From Lactococcus garvieae (GTDB taxonomy: Bacteria > Bacillota > Bacilli > Lactobacillales > Streptococcaceae), in the NCBI RefSeq assembly GCF_016027715.1, contig NZ_CP065691.1, positions 1,335,954 to 1,399,953 of the forward strand: a DNA stretch of 64,000 nt, written 5' to 3'. Below the pieces are notes generated by a model. That model made no database searches and was not told the origin of the DNA. It was given only the letters and a program-made list of their open reading frames with translations. The translations under genes were made by a program, and so were the position numbers. Positions 1 through 50,713 of the stretch are shown here, in pieces. Within the stretch, counting starts at the first letter, position 1; every line of letters begins with the position of its first letter.

Positions 1-149
1 ATTAGTTCATTTGCACCAATGGCAACAATACCATTTTCACGTTTTGCATAGGCAGCTCTTGACTTCCACCCCATCTGTTTAGCAACATCGTCCTGAGTTA
101 AATCTTTAGCAATTCGTTCTGCCTTGATTCTACTTAAATCAATAGTCAT
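1..149 (-). CDS. Cro-type HTH regulator of prophage (partial, runs off left edge)
   Basis: The minus strand reads an ATG at 147-149 preceded by a good ribosome binding site (AAAGGAG), then 49 codons to the window edge. The peptide (MTIDLSRIKAERIAKD, LTQDDVAKQMGWKSRAAYAKRENG) is a helix-turn-helix of the XRE/Cro class. It is transcribed divergently from the repressor at 329 across a shared operator region, the normal place of the first lytic gene in a temperate lactococcal phage. The C terminus is outside the window, so length and subfamily cannot be judged. Cro identity is inferred from position. Confidence 0.75.
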   Translation of the reverse strand, partial: MTIDLSRIKAERIAKDLTQDDVAKQMGWKSRAAYAKRENGIVAIGANEL

Positions 150-173
150 ATATTTTTCTCCTTTCTCTTCATC

Positions 174-288
174 GTTCTTTTTCGAGAACAAAATAATAAT
201 AACATTATCGTTCTCTCTTGTCAACAAAAAAGATATAAAAAAACACAAAAAAATATTTTACATTTACTTCTTGTGCTTTTTTGGGAAC
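174..288. promoter_or_regulatory. Three-site operator region of the prophage switch
   Basis: Three 16-bp copies of GTTCT-N6-AGAAC lie between the divergent cro and cI genes: 174-189 (perfect arms), 210-225 (right arm TCAAC) and 273-288 (GTGCT/GGAAC). The second overlaps the -35 of the leftward promoter, the first lies just downstream of its -10, and the third overlaps the -35 of the rightward promoter. This fits repressor control of the lytic promoter plus autoregulation. The repeats and overlaps are seen directly; the binding protein is inferred. Confidence 0.7.
196..224 (-). promoter_or_regulatory. Leftward (lytic, cro) promoter
   Basis: On the minus strand TTGACA (219-224) and TATTAT (196-201) are separated by 17 bp. 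Transcription would start near 189 and read the Cro-type gene starting at 149. Operator copies overlap both promoter elements. Confidence 0.75.
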
Positions 289-299
289 AATGATATAAT
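271..299 (+). promoter_or_regulatory. Rightward (lysogeny, cI) promoter
   Basis: TTGTGC (271-276) and TATAAT (294-299) are separated by 17 bp, about 30 bp upstream of the repressor ATG. The third operator copy (273-288) covers the -35 and spacer, so the repressor probably controls its own synthesis. Confidence 0.7.
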
Positions 300-328
300 G
301 TTTTTATCAACTTAATAGAGAGAAAAAC

Positions 329-841
329 ATGCGAACAAATGAAGAAATAGTAAAAATACTAATAGATGAAAAAGACAAACAAAATCTTTCCATATCTGAA
401 CTCGCTCGCCGTGTAGATATGGCAAAGTCTGCTGTGTCTAGATATTTTAATTTCACAAGAGAATTTCCTTTGAATCGTGCTGATGACTTCGCTAAAGTTT
501 TAGGGATTTCTACAGAATATCTATTGGGAATATCTAAGGAAGATACAGCCAGTACATCAGAACTTGATTTTCCTATTATAGAAGAAACAGTTGAAACTAT
601 GAAAAAACTTGATGAACCTCGTCAGAAAATTGTGCTTGATACTGCCAAAGAGCAACATAAAGAGCAGGAAGCAGAAAAAGTCTTATCATTAAATCACTAT
701 AAATTATCCGATGAGTACCTTGATGCTCAGATTAATAAAGCCAGCGCTTATGGCGGCGGAGAACTTAGTGATAATGACAAAGAGTTTTTCAAGCGTCTTT
801 TAAAAAATACTCTTCAAGAAAGAATTGACCGTGAGGAGTAA
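329..841 (+). CDS. cI-type prophage repressor (XRE HTH)
   Basis: A 170-residue protein. Residues about 5-67 form an XRE helix-turn-helix (NLSISELARRVDMAKSAVSR; ISTEYLLGI closes the domain). The rest is an acidic, helical C-terminal part of about 100 residues with no S24/LexA peptidase motif, so self-cleavage is not expected. That matches repressors that are removed by an ImmA-type protease, and such a gene follows at 850, only 8 bp downstream. The preceding promoter carries an operator copy in its -35. Role: keeps the lytic promoter off in the lysogen. HTH is certain; cI role is inferred from position and neighbours. Confidence 0.85.
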   Translation: MRTNEEIVKILIDEKDKQNLSISELARRVDMAKSAVSRYFNFTREFPLNRADDFAKVLGISTEYLLGISKEDTASTSELDFPIIEETVETMKKLDEPRQKIVLDTAKEQHKEQEAEKVLSLNHYKLSDEYLDAQINKASAYGGGELSDNDKEFFKRLLKNTLQERIDREE

Positions 842-849
842 AATGATTT

Positions 850-1287
850 ATGGGAAAATTAAGAGAATTGTCTCGTGAACTTGGTGCTGAAATAATATAT
901 TTTAATGCTATCGAAAATGGTGTTGAACTGGAAAGCGACACCAAGGGAGTTTACTTACCGGATGACAATGTTATATATATACGTGATGATCTAACAATAT
1001 ATGAACAAGAAAATGTTATTCTTCATGAACTTGGCCATTGCTATTATGGTCATGTACATTACGATTGCCATTCAAAGGGCTATAGTAGTAAACAGGAAGC
1101 AGAAGCCAATTCATATATGGTAGCCTATAGATTTAAGGAATGGCTTCTAACTTGGGATTTTGCTCCACTTCCCGAGGAATTGAGTGTCCAACGTTTCATG
1201 AATGCTTATCATTTTGAATATAAAGTTGAGCATTTATGTGAGGATATGCTAGAGCAATATAATGCTGAGTATTATGAAACTGTTTAA
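850..1287 (+). CDS. ImmA/IrrE-type metallopeptidase
   Basis: A 145-residue protein with the zinc metallopeptidase motif HELGH at residues 59-63 (H59, E60, H63), flanked by a typical ImmA/IrrE fold segment (DDNVIYIRDDL before; EAEANSYMVAYRF after, with the third ligand region). ImmA proteins of Bacillus mobile elements cleave or inactivate the cognate cI-type repressor after a damage or quorum signal. Here it lies 8 bp behind the repressor and is surely cotranscribed. It ends before a small inverted repeat (AACGTG/CACGTT, 1295-1313) that may attenuate transcription into the lipoprotein gene. Confidence 0.88.
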   Translation: MGKLRELSRELGAEIIYFNAIENGVELESDTKGVYLPDDNVIYIRDDLTIYEQENVILHELGHCYYGHVHYDCHSKGYSSKQEAEANSYMVAYRFKEWLLTWDFAPLPEELSVQRFMNAYHFEYKVEHLCEDMLEQYNAEYYETV

Positions 1288-1334
1288 ATAAAAGAACGTG
1301 CGCTAATCACGTTAAAAGGGTAAGGAGATAATTA

Positions 1335-2129
1335 ATGAAAAAATTGGGATTAATGATAGTTATGCTATTTTCTATTATTGCTTTGAGTGCTTGTTCAAAT
1401 TCTAATAAAACAGCTGAAGAACTACCTAAATCAGAATCTAAAAAGCCAATTCCTAGTGGTTATATAAAAATTTCTGATCCATATTTTAAACCAAAGGAAC
1501 AAGTTCAAGAAGAATTTAATCAATTAGGTCTAAAAGTAAAATTTGTAGTAACTAATTTTGATGAAAAGGCCGAGTCAAATTCAAAAAAAATAATTAAAGG
1601 AATGTGCGATCAGATTAGTTCTCAACCTAATGTAGAATATTTTGATGTTGATGAGTATGATAATCCAGATATTAGCTATTATGCTAAAAAAGGTAGTACC
1701 ATAATTATTGGGTATTCTGACCACGATTATACACCAAAATCAATGAGTAAAAGTGCAACTACCAGTCCTTCTTCCAATATTACCCCTTCAAGTTCTAAAG
1801 AAGATTCACAACCTTCAACAAATAAAGATGCTGGTAAAGTATCCAGAGAATTTCAAAATGCATTATCATCAGCTAATAATTATTTAGATTATTCATCTTT
1901 TTCAAAAGAGGGTTTAAAAGAACAATTAATTTTTGAACAATTTCCTGAAGATGCTGCTCAATATGCAATTGACAATGTAAAAGTTGATTGGAACGAGCAA
2001 GCACTTAAAACTGCGAAATCTTATCTTGATTATTCGTCGTTCTCAAATGCAGACCTTCAAGATCAATTAATCTATGATAAGTTTACCCCCGAGCAAGCTC
2101 AGTACGCTATAAATAATTTACCAGAGTAA
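1335..2129 (+). CDS. Ltp-family lipoprotein, probable superinfection exclusion
   Basis: A 264-residue lipoprotein: signal peptide and lipobox (IIALSAC, lipidated Cys about residue 20). The C terminus holds two repeats of about 45 residues beginning ANNYLDYSSFSKEGLKEQL and AKSYLDYSSFSNADLQDQL, the signature of the host-cell-surface-exposed lipoprotein (Ltp) domain. In phage TP-J34 the Ltp protein blocks DNA entry of related phages. Residues about 40-130 form an extra domain that vaguely recalls PASTA folds and is followed by a Ser/Thr-rich linker; the TP-J34 protein is shorter and lacks it. The gene sits in the lysogeny module, so it would be made in the lysogen. RBS is AAGGAG. Confidence 0.82.
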   Translation: MKKLGLMIVMLFSIIALSACSNSNKTAEELPKSESKKPIPSGYIKISDPYFKPKEQVQEEFNQLGLKVKFVVTNFDEKAESNSKKIIKGMCDQISSQPNVEYFDVDEYDNPDISYYAKKGSTIIIGYSDHDYTPKSMSKSATTSPSSNITPSSSKEDSQPSTNKDAGKVSREFQNALSSANNYLDYSSFSKEGLKEQLIFEQFPEDAAQYAIDNVKVDWNEQALKTAKSYLDYSSFSNADLQDQLIYDKFTPEQAQYAINNLPE

Positions 2130-2140
2130 CTTAAAATAAA

Positions 2141-2179
2141 AAATCCGTCCTAAACTTTGGCGAGTCCCAGGACGGATTT
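2141..2179. terminator. Stem-loop between ltp and the recombinase gene
   Basis: Perfect 11-bp arms AAATCCGTCCT (2141-2151) and AGGACGGATTT (2169-2179) with a 17-nt loop. On the plus strand no U-tract follows the stem; on the minus strand the stem is followed by TTTTTTATTTT, so the intrinsic terminator signature points leftward, against the genes around it. It may be a bidirectional or 3'-end-protecting structure for the ltp mRNA. Confidence 0.7.
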
Positions 2180-2255
2180 AGATCTAGTACAGAAACAACA
2201 CGGCAATCGTGAAGTTTTCTTGTACCATTATAACAAAAAGAAAGGTACAAATACA

Positions 2256-3704
2256 ATGAAAAAAGTAGCAGTGTACGCCCGTGTTTCAACTACCGTACAA
2301 GCTGAAGAGGGTTACTCTATTTCAGAACAAACAGACAAACTTTCCAAATATTGTGAAATAATGGGATGGACAGTCTACAATACTTATACCGATGCCGGAT
2401 TTACTGGGTCAAATATTGAACGTCCTGCAATGCAACAACTCATAAAAGATGCTAAAGAAAGTAAATTTGATACTGTCCTTGTGTATAAGTTAGATCGACT
2501 AAGTCGCTCTCAAAAAGATACATTATTTCTTATTGAGGATGTTTTCAATAAAATTGGAATTGGGTTTGTCAGTCTACAAGAAAAGTTTGATACTACTACT
2601 CCTTTTGGGAAAGCAATGATTGGTATCCTCTCAGTCTTTGCACAGCTTGAACGTGAACAGATTAAAGAGCGTATGGCATTAGGATATGCTGGACGAATAA
2701 AGAGCGGTAAAACGGCTGCTCATAGCATACAGCCATTCGGTTATGATTACAATAAAGAAAAAGGAATATTATCAGCAAATCCACTACAAGCAAGTATAGT
2801 AAAACGTATATTTGAAATGTACCTGGACGGTGTCAGCATCGTTAAAATAGTAAGAATTTTAAATGACGAAGGGCACATTGGTAAAGAGAAACTTTGGGCA
2901 CCAACTACAGTCAGAAGAACCCTTGCAAATCCAGTATATATTGGGTCTCAATTATTTAAAGGTGACCTCTATAAAACAGATAATGATGTCATAATTGACG
3001 AAAAAGTTTATTGGGCTGTACAAGATGAACTAGCAAAAAGGAATAAAAAAGTTAAAGAAGCAAATAATAATCCAAAACCTTTTCAGTCTAAATATATGCT
3101 ATCAGGTATCTTGAAATGTGGAAAGTGTGGAAAACCTCTAATTATTGTTGTGGGTAACAAGAAAAAAGATGGAACTACAAACAATCGTTATCAATGTTAC
3201 TACAGAAAAACAGGAGGGGGGAGCCGTCCTGTTGATTTCAATGAAAATAATGCCTGTGATTCCGGATATTTTCGACAAGATGCTTTAGAGAAGTATGTAA
3301 TAGATTCAATTTCAGAATTACAAATCAATGATCAATTATTAGAAACAGCTGTATCCACTACGGAAGATAGTAACAAAGTAGATACTATGTCATTAAAAAA
3401 AGAACTTGATAGACTTGAAAAAGAATTGGCCAAATATAAAAATATGTATATGATTGATGCAATATCATTGGAAGAGCTTCAAGAACAAACTAAGCAGAAT
3501 ACCCTTAGAAAAAAATCTATCATTAATCAACTTAATCAAGATAAAACTGAGGTAAATAATCTCCGTATCTCTAGAGCAAAAAAACTTCTTTCTTCAAAAA
3601 ACATAAGTGAACTTCCTTATGGTGAACAAAAAATCATGGTAAACACGATTATCAATAAAATTATATGTACCAATGCTGAATATTCTATAATATGGAACTT
3701 CTAA
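2256..3704 (+). CDS. Large serine recombinase (phage integrase)
   Basis: A 482-residue protein from the ATG at 2256. The frame is open back to 2157, but that part lies in the stem-loop and lacks a binding site, whereas 2256 has AAAGG 10 bases upstream. Residues 1-150 are the resolvase catalytic domain (YARVST with nucleophile Ser about residue 10; YKLDRLSRSQKD; QLEREQIKERM). A recombinase domain (about 160-260) follows, then a zinc ribbon (CGKCGKPL ... CYY ... ACDSGYF) and a C-terminal coiled coil. This is the architecture of TP901-1/phiC31 integrases. It is the last gene before host fabZ, so the attachment junction should lie in 3705-3777. Confidence 0.93.
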   Translation: MKKVAVYARVSTTVQAEEGYSISEQTDKLSKYCEIMGWTVYNTYTDAGFTGSNIERPAMQQLIKDAKESKFDTVLVYKLDRLSRSQKDTLFLIEDVFNKIGIGFVSLQEKFDTTTPFGKAMIGILSVFAQLEREQIKERMALGYAGRIKSGKTAAHSIQPFGYDYNKEKGILSANPLQASIVKRIFEMYLDGVSIVKIVRILNDEGHIGKEKLWAPTTVRRTLANPVYIGSQLFKGDLYKTDNDVIIDEKVYWAVQDELAKRNKKVKEANNNPKPFQSKYMLSGILKCGKCGKPLIIVVGNKKKDGTTNNRYQCYYRKTGGGSRPVDFNENNACDSGYFRQDALEKYVIDSISELQINDQLLETAVSTTEDSNKVDTMSLKKELDRLEKELAKYKNMYMIDAISLEELQEQTKQNTLRKKSIINQLNQDKTEVNNLRISRAKKLLSSKNISELPYGEQKIMVNTIINKIICTNAEYSIIWNF

Positions 3705-44629: not shown

Positions 44630-45757
44630 TTATAATTCAAGAAATGCTGTTTCAAATTCATCTGCAGTATTTTCCCAAGTGAAGTTTTGCAAGACTCGCT
44701 CTGAAACTTTGTTTTGCATATTCACACATTTTTGGGGATGAGTAATTAGATCACGTAATGCTTCAATTAATGCTGCTTCATCATTTTCTACAATATAGCC
44801 GTAGGTTTCATCTGGTAAAAGCTCTTTGGCACCTCCCACATTAGTGGTAATTATGGCATTTTTTAGAAGTGCTGCTTCTAAAAGAGCTGTAGAAAAACCT
44901 TCAATTTTTGACAAAAGTACAAAAATATCTGATTCATTATTCATCTGCATTACACGTTCATGAGAAACTTGACCTAAAAAGATAATGTTTTTTTGGTTAT
45001 ACTGTGACATCATTTCACTATAAATTGGCCCGTCCCCAGCTATGGTAAGCTCCAAGTTATCATATTCCTGTGATAATTTAGAAAAAGCAGATAAAAGTGT
45101 TTCCACACCTTTAAACTTAGCCTGTAGACGGCCCGCATAGCTGATTCTTATTTTACCATCAGATTTCTTTTATTGATAATATTTTAAAAAATCACTACTA
45201 TCTATGGCATTATATAAAACTCCCTTAGACTCTATCCCAAACTCTACTAACCAGTTTGCTGCTTCTTGCGATACACCATAGAAGATTCTTGAATTTCTCT
45301 TCACTTTGGCTATTAATAGACGTTCAATACAATGCAAAATTCTATCAAATAATTTATTATTTACTGTAAGATAAGTAGTACCGTGCTCAATAACAATTGC
45401 TTGTTTCCCTTTCTCTTTGGCTAGTGTTGCTCCTAGCAGAGAAGGCAGTTGAAACCGTGTATTAATAACATAGTAATCGATATCTTCTTCTTTAATTTCT
45501 TTTAATAATTTTTGATAAAGGATGTTCTTTTTAAGGAATGGATAACGCCTTTTACCAAAATCATAAATAGGCAGTCGGTATATTTTAATTCCTTCATCTA
45601 TAGATTCATAAGATAATGTTTCAGAATGCTTGGAAGTGACAATGATCACTCGATAACCTCGTGCTATCAACTTTTTTGCTATATTATAAGTATATCTTTC
45701 TATTCCACCGAAAAAAGGAACATAAAAACCACTAAAAAAAGCGACTGTTCGCGTCAT
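44630..45757 (-). pseudogene. GT4 glycosyltransferase interrupted by one in-frame TAA
   Basis: Two neighbouring pieces lie in the same reading frame: 45757-45170 (TVAFFSGFYVPFFGGIERYTYNIAKKL, the GT4 acceptor-binding half) and 45106-44630 (GDGPIYSEMM; IEGFSTALLEAALL, the donor-binding half). Between them the frame reads DFLKYYQ-stop-KKSDGKIRISYAGRLQAKF, which continues the normal GT4 order without a gap. Only the TAA at 45170-45172 breaks it; the likely ancestor codon is GAA, CAA or AAA. The joined protein would have 375 residues. The second half could restart at GTG 45106 but lacks a good binding site. Start ATG has GAGGAGG upstream. Confidence 0.85.
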
Positions 45758-45961: not shown

Positions 45962-46927
45962 GTGACTTATTCTGACGCACAACTTAAACTTTTTTCACTG
46001 AACTCAAATCCGGAGTTAGCTGATAAGATCAGCAAAATTATGGATGTACCATTGGGGAAAGTAACTTCAAAACAATTTTCTGATGGAGAAATCATGATTA
46101 ATATGGAAGAGAGTGTTCGTAATCGTGATGTGTATATTATCCAGTCAACAAGTTGTCCAGTCAATGATAATATTTGGGAATTATTGATTATGATTGATGC
46201 TTGCGTCCGTGCCTCTGCACACTCTGTCAATATCGTTATGCCATACTTTGGATATGCACGTCAAGACCGTACTGCTTCAAGTCGTGAACCTATCACTGCT
46301 AAACTTGTCGCTGATATGCTTGTAAAGGCTGGTGCTGATCGTCTATTGACTTTAGATATTCATGCAGTTCAAGTTCAAGGTTTCTTTGATATTCCTGTGG
46401 ATAACCTCTTTACTGTTCCACTATTTGCAGAATATTACATGAAGCAAGGATTATTTGGTGATGATGTTGTTGTTGTTGCGCCAAAAAATTCTGGTATCAA
46501 ACGTGCGCGTAGCCTTGCTGAATATTTAGAATCTCCTATTGCTATCGTTGACTATGAAGATGATGACGCAAAACGTGAAAATGGCTACATCATTGGGAAT
46601 GTCGAAGGTAAAAAAGTTATCTTGATTGACGATATCTTAAATACAGGTGTAACTTTCTCAAACGCAGCATCTGTTGTGCGTGAAGCGGGGGCAGATGACG
46701 TCTATGCTGTAGCAAGTCACGGTTTATTTACAAATACAGCTGCTGATTTACTCGAAAACTCTGGTATCTGCGAGGTATTAATCACAGACTCTGTTGCAAC
46801 TAAAAACCGTAAACCGGCCAATGCAAAATACTTGAGTGTAGATAAACATTTGGCTGATGCGATTCTTCGTATTCATGAAGGTCGTCCAGTATCACCACTC
46901 TTCAAATTTGATAAAAACCAAGATTAA
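45962..46927 (+). CDS. prs: Ribose-phosphate pyrophosphokinase
   Basis: A 321-residue PRPP synthetase starting with GTG behind AGGAG. The catalytic flap region [22 protein letters not shown], the metal-binding histidine segment [14 protein letters not shown] and the PRPP-binding loop [14 protein letters not shown] are all present. It makes PRPP for nucleotide, His and Trp synthesis. In streptococci prs is followed by a cysteine desulfurase gene and a DUF1831 gene; here that order is broken by about 2.6 kb of inserted genes. Confidence 0.96.
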
Positions 46928-46939
46928 TTATATATCTAT

Positions 46940-46967
46940 AAAAAAGCGACCCTTAGTCGCTTTTTTT
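46940..46967. terminator. prs terminator
   Basis: AAAAAAGCGAC (46940-46950) and GTCGCTTTTTT (46956-46966) with loop CCTTA; serves both convergent genes. Confidence 0.9.
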
Positions 46968-47313
46968 ATTTCAAGTGCTTTAGGGCTGTTTTAGGAACTT
47001 CATATCGCGTTCTCTCTTTCCAACTTACCACTCCTTTTTTCCTATCATATAAAACTTCTAGATAGACCTCGCTTTTTAATTTCTCTCTAGATTTCAGCTC
47101 AATATCTTTCTCTACACCCTTTGAACTGTATCCTTTGACTTTATAAGTATATAGCTCAGCATTTGCTTTACCCTCATCCTTTGAAATTTCAACTTCTTCA
47201 TTCTTTTGAAGAGAAACAAAATAACTGAGATGTCCATGATTAAAGCTGTACCAAAAATATCCGATATCCATAAATAATACACCTACAATAACAAGAAGTA
47301 ATCTTTTTTTCAT
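46966..47313 (-). CDS. YxeA-family secreted protein
   Basis: A 115-residue protein, from the ATG at 47313 (AGGA five bases upstream; an ATG two codons earlier is too close to the binding site). N-terminal membrane/signal helix (LLLVIVGVLFMDIGYFWYSF), then the YxeA-type domain (YTYKVKGYSSKGVEKDIEL; LEVLYDRKKGVVSWKE). Function unknown in all species I know. Promoter TATAAT lies about 40 bp upstream. Confidence 0.7.
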   Translation of the reverse strand: MKKRLLLVIVGVLFMDIGYFWYSFNHGHLSYFVSLQKNEEVEISKDEGKANAELYTYKVKGYSSKGVEKDIELKSREKLKSEVYLEVLYDRKKGVVSWKERTRYEVPKTALKHLK

Positions 47314-47470
47314 TCTCATCCTACACGTTCTATTGGTTTTATTACCTAGAATATTATACTACCTTTAATAAAAAAAATTAATATTTCTGCTCTCAAATAA
47401 GAATTATCTGATTAAAAGATATTTTTTACTGCACCTCCTCCAGTTGTTTCCGAGAGGATTTTACTAAATA

Positions 47471-47773
47471 TTATTTTTCTTCCAATTTTCTTTTTTTATA
47501 CTTTTCAAATTGATCATGAGCATAGTGGTTACCTCCAAGCGCTTCATAATCATCAAATATTCCACTCACCACTTGAAGTCCATAATCATTATTAATGGCT
47601 TGTAATAGCTCCATCCGCTTGATATGCATTTGGATATTTTTGAGCTGACTTTGTTGTTTTTTGGAAAATCGGCGATACAGACCGCTCAAAATTCCCGTCA
47701 CAATAACCAAGGAGGGCCAGTTTTTCAAGAGTGCGGTAAAAAGTAGCCATGTATGTCTAAATATTTCTTCCAT
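47471..47773 (-). CDS. Small membrane protein with phage-type tail
   Basis: A 100-residue protein with one membrane helix near the N terminus (TALLKNWPSLVIVTGILSGLY), a basic middle and the tail DDYEALGGNHYAHDQFEKYKKRK. The YEALGGN-x-Y motif near the end is common in small phage proteins encoded near holin or head genes. It is in the same orientation as the 64-residue gene at 47902 and probably cotranscribed. Function unknown. Confidence 0.55.
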   Translation of the reverse strand: MEEIFRHTWLLFTALLKNWPSLVIVTGILSGLYRRFSKKQQSQLKNIQMHIKRMELLQAINNDYGLQVVSGIFDDYEALGGNHYAHDQFEKYKKRKLEEK

Positions 47774-47901
47774 TTTGAGTACTTCCCTTTCTAATCTAAT
47801 TTAAATAGCCTCCTCTAAATGAGAGAAGATGGCAGGTGTGTAAAAGTATGGCAATATAATTTTGCTAATCTTTAAGTCATCTGACATCTCTTTTATTATT
47901 T

Positions 47902-48096
47902 TTATTCTTCAAAACAATACCAATGTAAAGTATTATCAGAAAATGATTGCCCCTTTTTTCGTGCCTTACGTTCTTTGCTCACTTTTGAATATATATTTGC
48001 TAAGTTTGTATTAAAACGCTCTGCAAGTTCACTAGCCGTACCACAATCTAAGAAGTTATCTCCCTCATAAACGGCATATAATTTATTAACTGACAT
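47902..48096 (-). CDS. Small phage-type regulator candidate
   Basis: A 64-residue protein: LYAVYEGDNFLDCGTASELAERFNTNLANIYSKVSKER is the form of small phage/ICE proteins with a helix-turn-helix (TASELAERFNTNLANIYSKV). GGGGAG precedes the ATG. It is read from the leftward promoter at 48331-48359 through a leader of about 230 bases and would take the Cro place opposite the repressor at 48418. HTH assignment is from the pattern only. Confidence 0.6.
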   Translation of the reverse strand: MSVNKLYAVYEGDNFLDCGTASELAERFNTNLANIYSKVSKERKARKKGQSFSDNTLHWYCFEE

Positions 48097-48192
48097 GTCT
48101 CCCCCTTGCTATTTTAAATACAGTACTTTTACTTTTCCCACTTCTACTTCTTACATACTTTTACAAAGTTATTGTATTTACCCTATTTTCAC

Positions 48193-48221
48193 TTGACACA
48201 TGAGTATCAATAATCTATAAT
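48193..48221 (+). promoter_or_regulatory. Rightward consensus promoter of the second control module
   Basis: TTGACA (48193-48198), 17-bp spacer, TATAAT (48216-48221): perfect consensus. The spacer contains GAGTATCAATAATC, nearly identical to the spacer of the opposing promoter. Transcript runs to the repressor at 48418, through the opposing promoter. Confidence 0.9.
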
Positions 48222-48330
48222 GAAAGCATAGTTAAAAAGCCTATTAAACACGTTAGTTCTCTTGCATGAATCAGCATTTTTTGAGTAATAATGGTTTTCT
48301 TAGGAATAGCAATAAGTCTTTACAAAAACA

Positions 48331-48359
48331 ATTATAGATTATAGATACTATTTTGTCAA
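48331..48359 (-). promoter_or_regulatory. Leftward consensus promoter, facing the previous one
   Basis: Minus strand TTGACA (48354-48359), 17-bp spacer, TATAAT (48331-48336): perfect consensus. Spacer TAGTATCTATAATC repeats the sequence in the rightward promoter. Start points are about 100 bp apart and the two transcripts overlap as antisense leaders (about 48228-48324). Confidence 0.9.
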
Positions 48360-48417
48360 GGGATTGAGTATCTTTTTTCTACAACGTTTTAAGAACTCAC
48401 TCGAAAGGTTTATATCA

Positions 48418-48762
48418 TTGGATTTATACGAAAAAATAAAAGCGCTCGCAGCGCAGAAACATATTTCTATTCGACAGCTGGAAGAAAAAGTTGGAATTGC
48501 AAATGGTACGATTAGACAATGGGGCCGAAAAAATCCTGGCGTGAATAATGTAAAGTTAGTAGCTGACTTTTTCCACGTCACTGTGGACTACTTATTAGGT
48601 AGTGAAGAAAAACCTTCTCTCAAAGAACCGATTGACCTTGCCGATTTGGTAGATGAAAATAAGGTCGATTGGGACGAGTGGGTTTCTTTTGACGGAAAGC
48701 CTCTTACCGATGAAGTTAAGACCGCTTTAAAACTTATCTTGGGTAAACGTCTGGAAGACTGA
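48418..48762 (+). CDS. XRE-family repressor of the second control module
   Basis: A 114-residue protein. I choose the TTG at 48418 as start (AAAGG nine bases upstream; DLYEKIKALAAQKHISIRQLEEKVG follows); the frame opens at another TTG (48364) that lies beside the leftward promoter and lacks a site. HTH at residues about 3-60, then an acidic tail (DLADLVDENKVDWDEWVSFDGKPL) typical for phage and ICE repressors. No peptidase domain. Followed 11 bp later by an ImmA-like gene. Confidence 0.8.
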   Translation: MDLYEKIKALAAQKHISIRQLEEKVGIANGTIRQWGRKNPGVNNVKLVADFFHVTVDYLLGSEEKPSLKEPIDLADLVDENKVDWDEWVSFDGKPLTDEVKTALKLILGKRLED

Positions 48763-48773
48763 CTGGAGGCTCT

Positions 48774-49364
48774 ATGGACGAACAGGAATTGATAGAGCGT
48801 CTAATTTACGAGATTGAAGCATATGGAATTGAAGTCATAGGGGACAACTATTTTCCATTGGATGCTCTTACACATAACAGAAAAAAGATTACGATTTTCA
48901 ATCCCACGACGATTAAAGCTTTCAAATTATGCCATGAATTAATGCATATTAAAAACAATGACAGTTATCGGTTGGGTGAGTGCGACACCACAAGCCCTCA
49001 AGAAAAGAGAACTAATAGAGAAGCTATTCTGTTTCTTTGGGATATTTTCATATCGGAAGGGGGCGATTTTAATAACTTTCAAAAGTTTATTGAAATCTCG
49101 GGTTGCCCTTGTGATACATCTTTCACTCTTTTATGCAAAGTAAATGAACAAGCAATAAAAGAATTAAATAAGCCAGAAAAGAAGGCAAGAGATTTTAGCA
49201 ATATGTCTTTAAAAGAATGTGTCATAGACTTTATTAGTCACTTTGATGTAATCGAGCAAATCAACACTTATCAATTTCTTGAAGCTTATAGCCTTTCTTA
49301 CGATAACTATGACGATGCTGTAAGGCTTTTTAAATCAATGCTGAAATTAGATTATATACATTAA
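48774..49364 (+). CDS. ImmA/IrrE-like metallopeptidase
   Basis: A 196-residue protein with zinc motif HELMH at residues 54-58 (H54, E55, H58) in KAFKLCHELMHIKNN. The N-terminal part matches ImmA; the C-terminal 100 residues are helical and of unknown role, which makes it longer than the prophage ImmA at 850. GGAGG precedes the ATG. It probably removes the repressor encoded just upstream. Confidence 0.82.
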   Translation: MDEQELIERLIYEIEAYGIEVIGDNYFPLDALTHNRKKITIFNPTTIKAFKLCHELMHIKNNDSYRLGECDTTSPQEKRTNREAILFLWDIFISEGGDFNNFQKFIEISGCPCDTSFTLLCKVNEQAIKELNKPEKKARDFSNMSLKECVIDFISHFDVIEQINTYQFLEAYSLSYDNYDDAVRLFKSMLKLDYIH

Positions 49365-49594
49365 GAAGTTAGATTACTAATATAAGTCTATACCTTTAAT
49401 AGATGATGTGCTAAGATTACAGACAAAAAATATAAAACATGATAAGATAGATACAATTGGGATTTAACAAGGTTATACTCCAAAATGTATATTCTGTAAG
49501 TACTCAACTACGCCGAGTAGAATATGGAAGATAACTTCTTGTAATCCCCTTTATAGAAATCGTTTAGAAGTTACTCGAAAGAGAGGAAAAGACA
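49365..49594. other. Gap between the control module and nifS
   Basis: About 230 bp without a gene. It is AT-rich, contains a short inverted repeat TACTC/GAGTA (near 49499-49518), no terminator and no convincing promoter. The right border of the insertion between prs and nifS must lie here. Confidence 0.5.
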
Positions 49595-50713
49595 ATTATA
49601 TATCTAGATAATGCTGCGACCACGCCTTTATTACCAGAAGTTGTTGAAGTTATGACGGATGTGCTCATCAATAACTTTGGTAATCCTTCTAGTACCCATA
49701 ACTTTGGCCGCCAAGCAAGCCAAATCGTGCGTCAAGCGCGTGAAACAGTAGCCAAAGCCCTTAAAGTATCACCTGCTACAATTACTTTTACTTCTGGCGG
49801 GAGTGAATCAAACTCAACCGCCTTAGTCGGTTATGCTTTAGCAAATCGTCACAAAGGAAATCATATTATTACAACAGCCTTGGAGCATCCTTCAGTACTG
49901 AATGCTCTAAAATATTTACAAGAGCGACATGGGTTTGAAATTACGTTCGTACAGCCACAATCAAACGGTGCTTTCCCTGCGCAACTTATTGAGGATGCAC
50001 TTCGTGAAGATACAATCCTTGTCTCAATGATGATGGCAAATAACGAAACTGGACAATTACTTCCCATCAAAGAAGTTGGACAACTTTTAGACAATCATCA
50101 AGCCGTATTTCATGTTGATTCTGTACAAACAATGGGGAAAATACCTGTATTTCCTGAAGAATTAAAAATTGATTTTCTTTCAGCCAGTGGGCATAAATTT
50201 CATGGTCCTAAAGGTGTTGGTTTTCTTTACCATCGTTCTGGTCTCCGTTTTGATAGCATCATTCACGGCGGTGAGCAAGAAGAAAAACGACGTGCTGGTA
50301 CTGAAAATCTCCATTCACTGATGGGTATGGCCAAGGCTTTACAAATCGCTACTGAAAACATGAGCAAAAATTATGCACATGTTGAAATGCTGAAGGAGCT
50401 TCTTCTTGAAGAACTTTCAGATATCAATTTTTATAAACATGAATTCGGCCCATCGATGCCCCACGTCATTAATCTTGGGTTTCCAGAAAAAAATCATGAT
50501 CTACTTCTGACTAAACTTGATTTAGCTGGTGTTGCCATCTCAACTGGTTCGGCTTGTACTGCTGGAACAGTAGATCCTTCTCACGTGCTTGAAGCTGTTT
50601 ATGGAAGTCAATCACCAAAACTCAAAGAAAACATTCGTGTTTCCTTTTCAGAACTCAACACTGAAGACGACGTTCGTACTTTTGTTCAAACCTTAAAAGA
50701 AAGGGCATTATAA
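49595..50713 (+). CDS. Cysteine desulfurase (IscS/NifS-like) with noncanonical start
   Basis: A 372-residue PLP enzyme if read from ATT at 49595. The conserved N terminus IIYLDNAATTPLLPE lies upstream of the first ATG (49652) and downstream of an in-frame TAG (49565-49567), with no ATG, GTG or TTG between. GAGAGGA stands 6-8 bases before the ATT, so an AUU (or AUA) start is the simplest reading. PLP lysine in SASGHKFHGPKG (about Lys201) and the catalytic loop STGSACTAG (Cys about 325) are intact. It supplies sulfur for Fe-S clusters or thio-tRNA. The DUF1831 gene follows after 2 bp. Confidence 0.85.
   Translation: MIYLDNAATTPLLPEVVEVMTDVLINNFGNPSSTHNFGRQASQIVRQARETVAKALKVSPATITFTSGGSESNSTALVGYALANRHKGNHIITTALEHPSVLNALKYLQERHGFEITFVQPQSNGAFPAQLIEDALREDTILVSMMMANNETGQLLPIKEVGQLLDNHQAVFHVDSVQTMGKIPVFPEELKIDFLSASGHKFHGPKGVGFLYHRSGLRFDSIIHGGEQEEKRRAGTENLHSLMGMAKALQIATENMSKNYAHVEMLKELLLEELSDINFYKHEFGPSMPHVINLGFPEKNHDLLLTKLDLAGVAISTGSACTAGTVDPSHVLEAVYGSQSPKLKENIRVSFSELNTEDDVRTFVQTLKERAL

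Follow-up and report, generated by a model that had tools for sequence, protein, structure and literature searches.

The window analysed here, 64,000 nucleotides of the Lactococcus garvieae contig NZ_CP065691.1, contains a small block of phage-type genes on either side of two predicted promoters that face each other. To the right, on the forward strand, lies a gene with a TTG start for a phage repressor of 114 amino acids (48418..48762, +), which matched HTH_3 and PF06543 (Lac_bphage_repr), the latter with an E-value of 8.2e-28 and 96.6 bits at a cut-off of 21. A structure model of the protein had a mean pLDDT of 76.5; residues 1-60 were helical and confidently predicted, the C-terminal part was uncertain. 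The model supports a helical DNA-binding domain at the N-terminus, with the C-terminal part less certain. The adjoining gene in the same orientation (48774..49364, +) is predicted to code for a metalloprotease of 196 amino acids with the HExxH sequence HELMH, noted by eye, and a match to phrog_87 (E 9.5e-28); a match to Pfam M78 (0.098) stayed under the cut-off. Its position corresponds to that of ImmA in the ImmR/ImmA type of ICEBs1, where an HTH repressor also stands beside a metalloprotease gene. To the left the first gene (47902..48096, -), which we call KLYAVY after its sequence, encodes 64 amino acids and partially matched phrog_803 (E 1.1e-9), with no match in Pfam, to any HTH-type PHROG or, at 1e-5, in the phage collection. 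It is followed by a phage-type gene for 100 amino acids (47471..47773, -; phrog_6453), possibly read from the same leftward promoter, and by a YxeA/DUF1093 gene. Pfam and PHROG returned no HTH family for these three leftward genes, and neither an integrase nor a replication gene was seen among the open reading frames of the element by eye or with Pfam and PHROG.

The promoters are of the sigma-70 type with 17-nt spacers and were scored as consensus matches. P+ (48193..48221, +) points towards the repressor gene and would be the lysogenic promoter, while P- (48331..48359, -; read from 48359 to 48331) points leftwards towards 48096 and would serve the lytic side. Both match TTGACA-N17-TATAAT in 12/12 positions, in agreement with the initial annotation, which had described two perfect promoters facing each other. 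The exact sequence occurs 18 times in the genome of 2.11 Mb, nine times per strand (0 and 1 for the reversed pattern as a control), and P+ and P- are the only two sites less than 1 kb apart. With nine sites per strand, simple arithmetic puts the chance expectation of facing pairs less than 300 bp apart at about 0.01, and 4000 shuffles of the 300-nt upstream region yielded no facing 12/12 pair. Assuming a start about 7 nt downstream of each -10 element, transcription would begin near 48228 (+) and 48323 (-), about 96 bp apart, and the leaders would be antisense to each other over about 96 nt (48228..48323); this accords with the approximately 100 bp and antisense leaders proposed initially. The -10 ends are 109 nt apart, and a predicted leader of 190 nt separates the start of P+ from the repressor gene. 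From this geometry transcriptional interference between P+ and P- is plausible. The promoter arms, 48189-48221 and 48331-48363, are 85% complementary over 33 nt. We considered an RNA hairpin between them and rejected it: neither predicted transcript holds both arms, the + leader appeared unstructured, and a search of Rfam over 46900-49700 gave no family at gathering score.

The spacers of P+ and P- are CATGAGTATCAATAATC and AAATAGTATCTATAATC. Their joint pattern, AGTATCNATAATCTATAAT, was found with up to 3 mismatches at two places only in the 64-kb window, and these were the two promoter spacers; 0.10 occurrences were expected by chance and two were reached in 1/100 shuffles. The initial annotation had called the spacers nearly identical, which is correct; it had overlooked that the common site extends into the -10 element and that a third copy exists. 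From pattern search and co-variation (see below) we designated putative operators O1 inside P+ (AGTATCAATAATCTAT; 48203..48218, +) and O2 inside P- (AGTATCTATAATCTAT; 48334..48349, -). The putative third operator, O3 (AGTATCTTTTTTCTAC; 48367..48382, +), agrees in 12/16 positions and is located 7 nt outside the -35 element of P-, where it was first noticed in an alignment of ten loci. Taken alone O3 of the window is weak, with 10/43 foreign operators matching this upstream region equally well; as a candidate operator it gains support from its position and from co-variation across the family. The facing layout with a predicted site common to both promoters is supported as an architecture.

The probable extent of the element is 46928..49415. 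This segment is absent from the interval between prs and a class-V aminotransferase gene, which we read from its sequence as a cysteine desulfurase gene, in genomes G002 and G003 of the same genus, whose flanks align to 46927 and again from 49416. Because some 840 nt of different sequence occupy this place in both genomes, the interval is not a clean empty site. A related small block is located elsewhere in G002 and G003, between a tRNA pseudouridine synthase gene and tRNA-Arg, and their relatives of KLYAVY, 79% identical, adjoin the same kind of switch. We took the block in the window for a prophage remnant; its repressor side is intact and P- retains three small genes. The related block (L070:7287-8947 and L183:4484-6141) combines a KLYAVY gene for 64 or 71 amino acids, facing promoters, repressor and protease, with no visible integrase. 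Its location is the same in the two Lactococcus genomes, whereas the block of the window is inserted elsewhere. Such a block is possibly a captured immunity module. A second and more broken relative is present in the same genome at about 437 kb (L014, G000:C2:435570-438608), where what is left is the C-terminal fragment of a protease and a short stretch that matches the P+ leader, and the repressor search gave no match.

Repressor and protease have open frames in which pN is far lower than pS; for the repressor versus PLg-TB25 the values were 0.058 and 0.74, in a comparison that leaves out the G003 repressor rows and the KLYAVY rows of the window. The low ratio shows constraint on both proteins, which may have acted in active phages before capture or after it. 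A search of a plasmid collection for relatives gave no match. A defence system was tried as an explanation and dropped, as PADLOC reported weak matches for the repressor only (capH 1.6e-6, PDC-M69A 2.3e-5, RmrA 1e-4) and none for the other six proteins. The capH hit concerns CapH of CBASS defence, an HTH protein paired with a metalloprotease.

At the DNA level 22 phage records matched the region, with PLg-TB25 (PMC5431838) as the best. The same repressor family, preceded by facing promoters at similar offsets, is found in the rap region of TPW22 (AF066865), in PLg-TB25, Dub35A, 98202-98204 and PLgT-1, and Rap of TPW22 is about 73% identical to the repressor of the window. The depositors of AF066865 annotated the same two promoters by their -35 and -10 signals. 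Relative to the repressor start these are at -232 to -203 and -88 to -59, and the offsets in the window are nearly the same with -225 to -196 for P+ and -87 to -58 for P-. Thus the window has a PF06543 repressor and promoter offsets close to those of TPW22. Yet the relatives of the TPW22 kind are phages, with an integrase annotated in the stretches of TPW22, Dub35A, PLgT-1 and 98202, whereas the window holds a remnant; furthermore phrog_15440 comes first on the lytic side of TPW22 and PLg-TB25, whereas the window has other leftward genes.

To look at the layout in other relatives we collected clusters by repressor similarity with tblastn, not by PF06543, and scanned the upstream DNA for pairs with at least 10/12 matches in each promoter. 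A usable repressor start was present in 383/432 loci; two were dropped because of a short upstream region, and 289 distinct upstreams gave a set of 133 clusters. Facing pairs were found in 104/133 clusters (40 shuffles: mean 0.3, maximum 2) and back-to-back pairs in 13/133 (mean 1.1, maximum 3). At this threshold 29 clusters were without a facing pair, and by eye the repressors of 10 of these look unrelated. A first set, from which 11 of 52 clusters had been left out by eye as other repressor types, an exclusion not applied to the 133 clusters, had facing pairs in 37/41 (100 shuffles: mean 0.07, maximum 2). PF06543 itself gave hits in 14 of 335 family genomes searched. As a control we used relatives of TP901-1 CI and r1t Rro with 97/107 loci usable: at 10/12 matches, 2/39 were facing and 14/39 back-to-back, at 9/12 the numbers were 4/39 and 31/39. 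Seven named phages, hand-picked from listings and also contained in the 133 clusters, all had the facing layout (PH10, P9, 315.1, PLE2, Listeria LM 4-11-1, VEsP-1 and Spoks; hosts Streptococcus for three, Lactobacillus, Listeria, Enterococcus and Psychrobacillus), while TP901-1 and r1t were not facing in the same comparison. In the 104 clusters the gap between the -10 ends had a median of 119 (IQR 110-123), and the predicted starts were a median of 105 apart. P- was the better promoter in 30, equal to P+ in 54 and worse in 20 of them, and a strong/weak asymmetry of the promoters was not convincing. As judged from predicted promoters the facing layout is a conserved trait among relatives of this repressor.

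The site in the spacers was then compared across the family. O1 and O2 were more similar within a locus (13.76/19) than between loci (9.63; 104 clusters), and the sum of own O1-O2 similarities was 1431 with a maximum of 1073 in 20000 permutations. The distance between operators followed the distance between repressor HTHs with a Mantel r of 0.37 (0/2000 permutations) in 44 loci, a set in which two mirror-image clusters had been dropped, the seven named phages added and pairs found in 44/46 loci. Examples of the site are GTATCAATA in the window and TPW22, CGGTCAAATAATC in Bacchus, GTAGAAAAAGTTC in L048 and TATACTAATAAGC in L. petauri. Because it agrees within a locus and changes between repressors, the spacer site behaves as an operator would, and because it co-varies with the repressor HTH the adjacent HTH repressor is likely to be its binder.

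The best third copy was positioned 0-12 nt outside the -35 element of P- in 74/104 clusters, with about 4% expected by position, and in 71 of those 74 at 5-9 nt. This slot was specific for the operator of its own locus (own 11.93, foreign 9.36; 0/10000 permutations). Among the 74 clusters that scored 12 or more in the O3 slot (35 nt), 69 had the centres of O2 and O3 31-35 bp apart, close to three turns of DNA. The O3 sites were weakly palindromic (0.55 versus 0.51 in shuffled sequence; 74 sites). Because a smaller excess for the own operator was also seen outside P+ (10.17 versus 9.73; 0/10000 permutations), O3 is perhaps not the sole extra site, and a fourth may exist in some loci. Two slots between the promoters showed no co-variation with the operator in the 104 clusters (4548 and 4181/10000 permutations), while in the earlier 44 loci they had a slight excess (190 and 69/5000). 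Looping between O1 and O2 was considered as well; it is not indicated, because their distance is variable without a helical phase (R 0.20).

On the lytic side we inspected ten first leftward genes, from nine phages and the L. petauri block. Five had a Pfam HTH_3 hit at E<=0.1, four of them above the curated cut-off. The gene of P9 matched a DNA-binding PHROG; those of TPW22 and PLg-TB25 belong to phrog_15440 and have no HTH match. In loci L109 and L146 a paralogue of the repressor is located on the other side of the facing promoters at mirrored distances. With paralogous HTH proteins on both sides in this arrangement, the switch of L109 and L146 looks nearly symmetric. Because of these paralogues and the HTH_3 hits, some members of the family may have a second regulator acting on the same sites. 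The window has neither an HTH leftward gene nor phrog_15440, and therefore there is no evidence of bistability at this locus, although the missing HTH match is not decisive because the first lytic gene of TPW22 and PLg-TB25 has none, either. The analysis gave no support to the compact bistable switch envisaged by the initial annotation, as it showed a probable remnant with no integrase seen and three leftward genes devoid of HTH matches.

In coliphages P2 and 186 lytic and lysogenic promoters face each other as they do in the window. According to PMC7498355, promoters of this type are face-to-face at 40-60 bp, primary repressor operators are placed over the lytic promoter and the sites of Apl/Cox are distinct. 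The window differs by the approximately 96 bp between its predicted starts and by one putative operator in both promoters plus O3. Thus the resemblance to 186 and P2 drawn in the initial annotation extends to the facing promoters, not to their spacing or to the single site in both. Its view that such a layout sets the locus apart from lactococcal phages was wrong, as many lactococcal phages have it and AF066865 records it for TPW22. The divergent layout it attributed to lactococcal phages applies to TP901-1 and r1t and is not general among them. These two lactococcal phages with small immunity regions (CI/MOR and Rro/Tec, respectively) have back-to-back promoters, unlike the facing ones of the window. 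For TP901-1, PMC7250872 describes back-to-back promoters and three CI operators; the window likewise has three putative operator copies, but no back-to-back promoters around a central one.

Gram-positive elements with facing promoters had been described before: convergent cases are on record for Clostridium clostridioforme prophages and for ICESt1/ICESt3. For the former, the ImmR/ImmA-type phi5 and phi12, a prediction gave convergent promoters, and interference as in 186 was suggested (PMC11318856); an HTH repressor stands beside a metalloprotease gene as in the window, the section that describes them names no operators, and the comparison made here is one of layout. In the arp2-Pcr region of ICESt1/ICESt3 the promoters were mapped by 5'RACE, with a start 7 nt after the -10 box, and Parp2 was called convergent by the authors (PMC3234194). 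These are conjugative elements in which the protease gene does not adjoin arp2, and the comparison with the window is again one of layout. Our searches of open-access PMC papers brought up neither a family-wide description nor a fixed three-site facing switch.

We incline to the view that a distinct third class of lysis-lysogeny switch operates in many temperate phages of lactic acid bacteria and of related Firmicutes; in it the promoters face each other, both contain the same spacer site and a third site lies behind the lytic promoter at a fixed distance of about three turns. While the geometry remained nearly fixed, the operator would have evolved with each repressor, and the class would be neither TP901-1-like, i.e. 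back-to-back, nor P2/186-like, i.e. facing with separate operators. In gene maps a facing layout looks no different from a divergent one, since the genes diverge in both. Should the class prove real, some streptococcal, lactococcal, enterococcal and listerial prophages have immunity regions that are regarded as "divergent" but are actually facing. Immunity groups would then be readable from DNA, because the spacers of the promoters would give the operator, and dozens of natural variants that share one geometry but differ in operator would lend themselves to tests of the part played by transcriptional interference.

The locus itself is probably a chromosomal remnant of a temperate phage related to TPW22 and PLg-TB25 in kind, namely its immunity region, with a repressor acting on three operator copies and facing P+ and P-. 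We infer that P+ makes the repressor, which would bind O1 in P+, O2 in P- and O3 outside the -35 element of P-. A repressor dimer at O2, aided by cooperation with O3 about three DNA turns away, would close P-, while occupancy of O1 would limit the synthesis of the repressor itself. Upon induction the repressor level would drop, probably via the neighbouring ImmA-like protease, and P- would then fire across P+, which would bring transcriptional interference and a leader antisense to the repressor message. A second HTH protein seems to be encoded by the first lytic gene of some complete phages.

Possibly, though we think it unlikely, one promoter, most probably P+, still works at the locus and P- is a leftover, which would reduce the region to an autoregulated immunity gene without a switch. 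The element with no integrase or replication gene seen among its open reading frames (by eye, Pfam, PHROG) and the more broken remnant at 437 kb in the same genome, with its leader piece and protease fragment, would fit such decay. Yet P- and O2 have kept every consensus base, and the 64-aa gene downstream of P- has kept 79% identity to the corresponding genes of G002 and G003. The open repressor and protease frames with pN far below pS also speak against decay, although that history may be one of active phages. Quite improbable, in our opinion, is a spacer site bound mainly by a Cro-like HTH protein of the lytic side instead of the adjacent repressor. The HTH_3 hits in 5/10 first leftward genes, the DNA-binding PHROG of P9 and the mirrored paralogues of L109 and L146 agree with this idea, but the operator sequence follows the HTH of the repressor, the only HTH that the comparison covered, and TPW22 and PLg-TB25 keep the sites without an HTH match in their first lytic gene. 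Moreover, both proteins could bind.

A function at the RNA level, with pairing of the antisense leaders or a stem as the conserved entity, has very little in its favor beyond the predicted overlap of about 96 nt. O1 and O2 would never occur together in one transcript, the + leader folds no better than shuffled sequence (z 0.45), Rfam has no family in 46900-49700, and co-variation with the operator in the slots between the promoters is missing in 104 clusters and slight in 44 loci. Finally, chance could in principle supply promoter-like words and a repeat in AT-rich DNA, and all our scores are consensus matches. We give this practically no credence: 0/4000 upstream shuffles, the layout in 104/133 clusters and the co-variation tests oppose it as regards the sequence pattern, as distinct from promoter activity.

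Two other parts of the window deserve mention. Positions 1-3704 contain the end of another mobile element with a gene for a 170-aa HTH_3 protein followed by an M78-type metallopeptidase gene, a lipoprotein-like gene (by eye) and a serine recombinase. In a scan of 1-1500 a promoter with 11/12 matches was detected on the minus strand at 224-196, and no plus-strand site appeared near 174-299 at 9/12. A glycosyltransferase gene at 44630-45757 (-) is split into two open reading frames, 45170-45757 for the N-terminal and 44630-45106 for the C-terminal part, as if the gene were broken.
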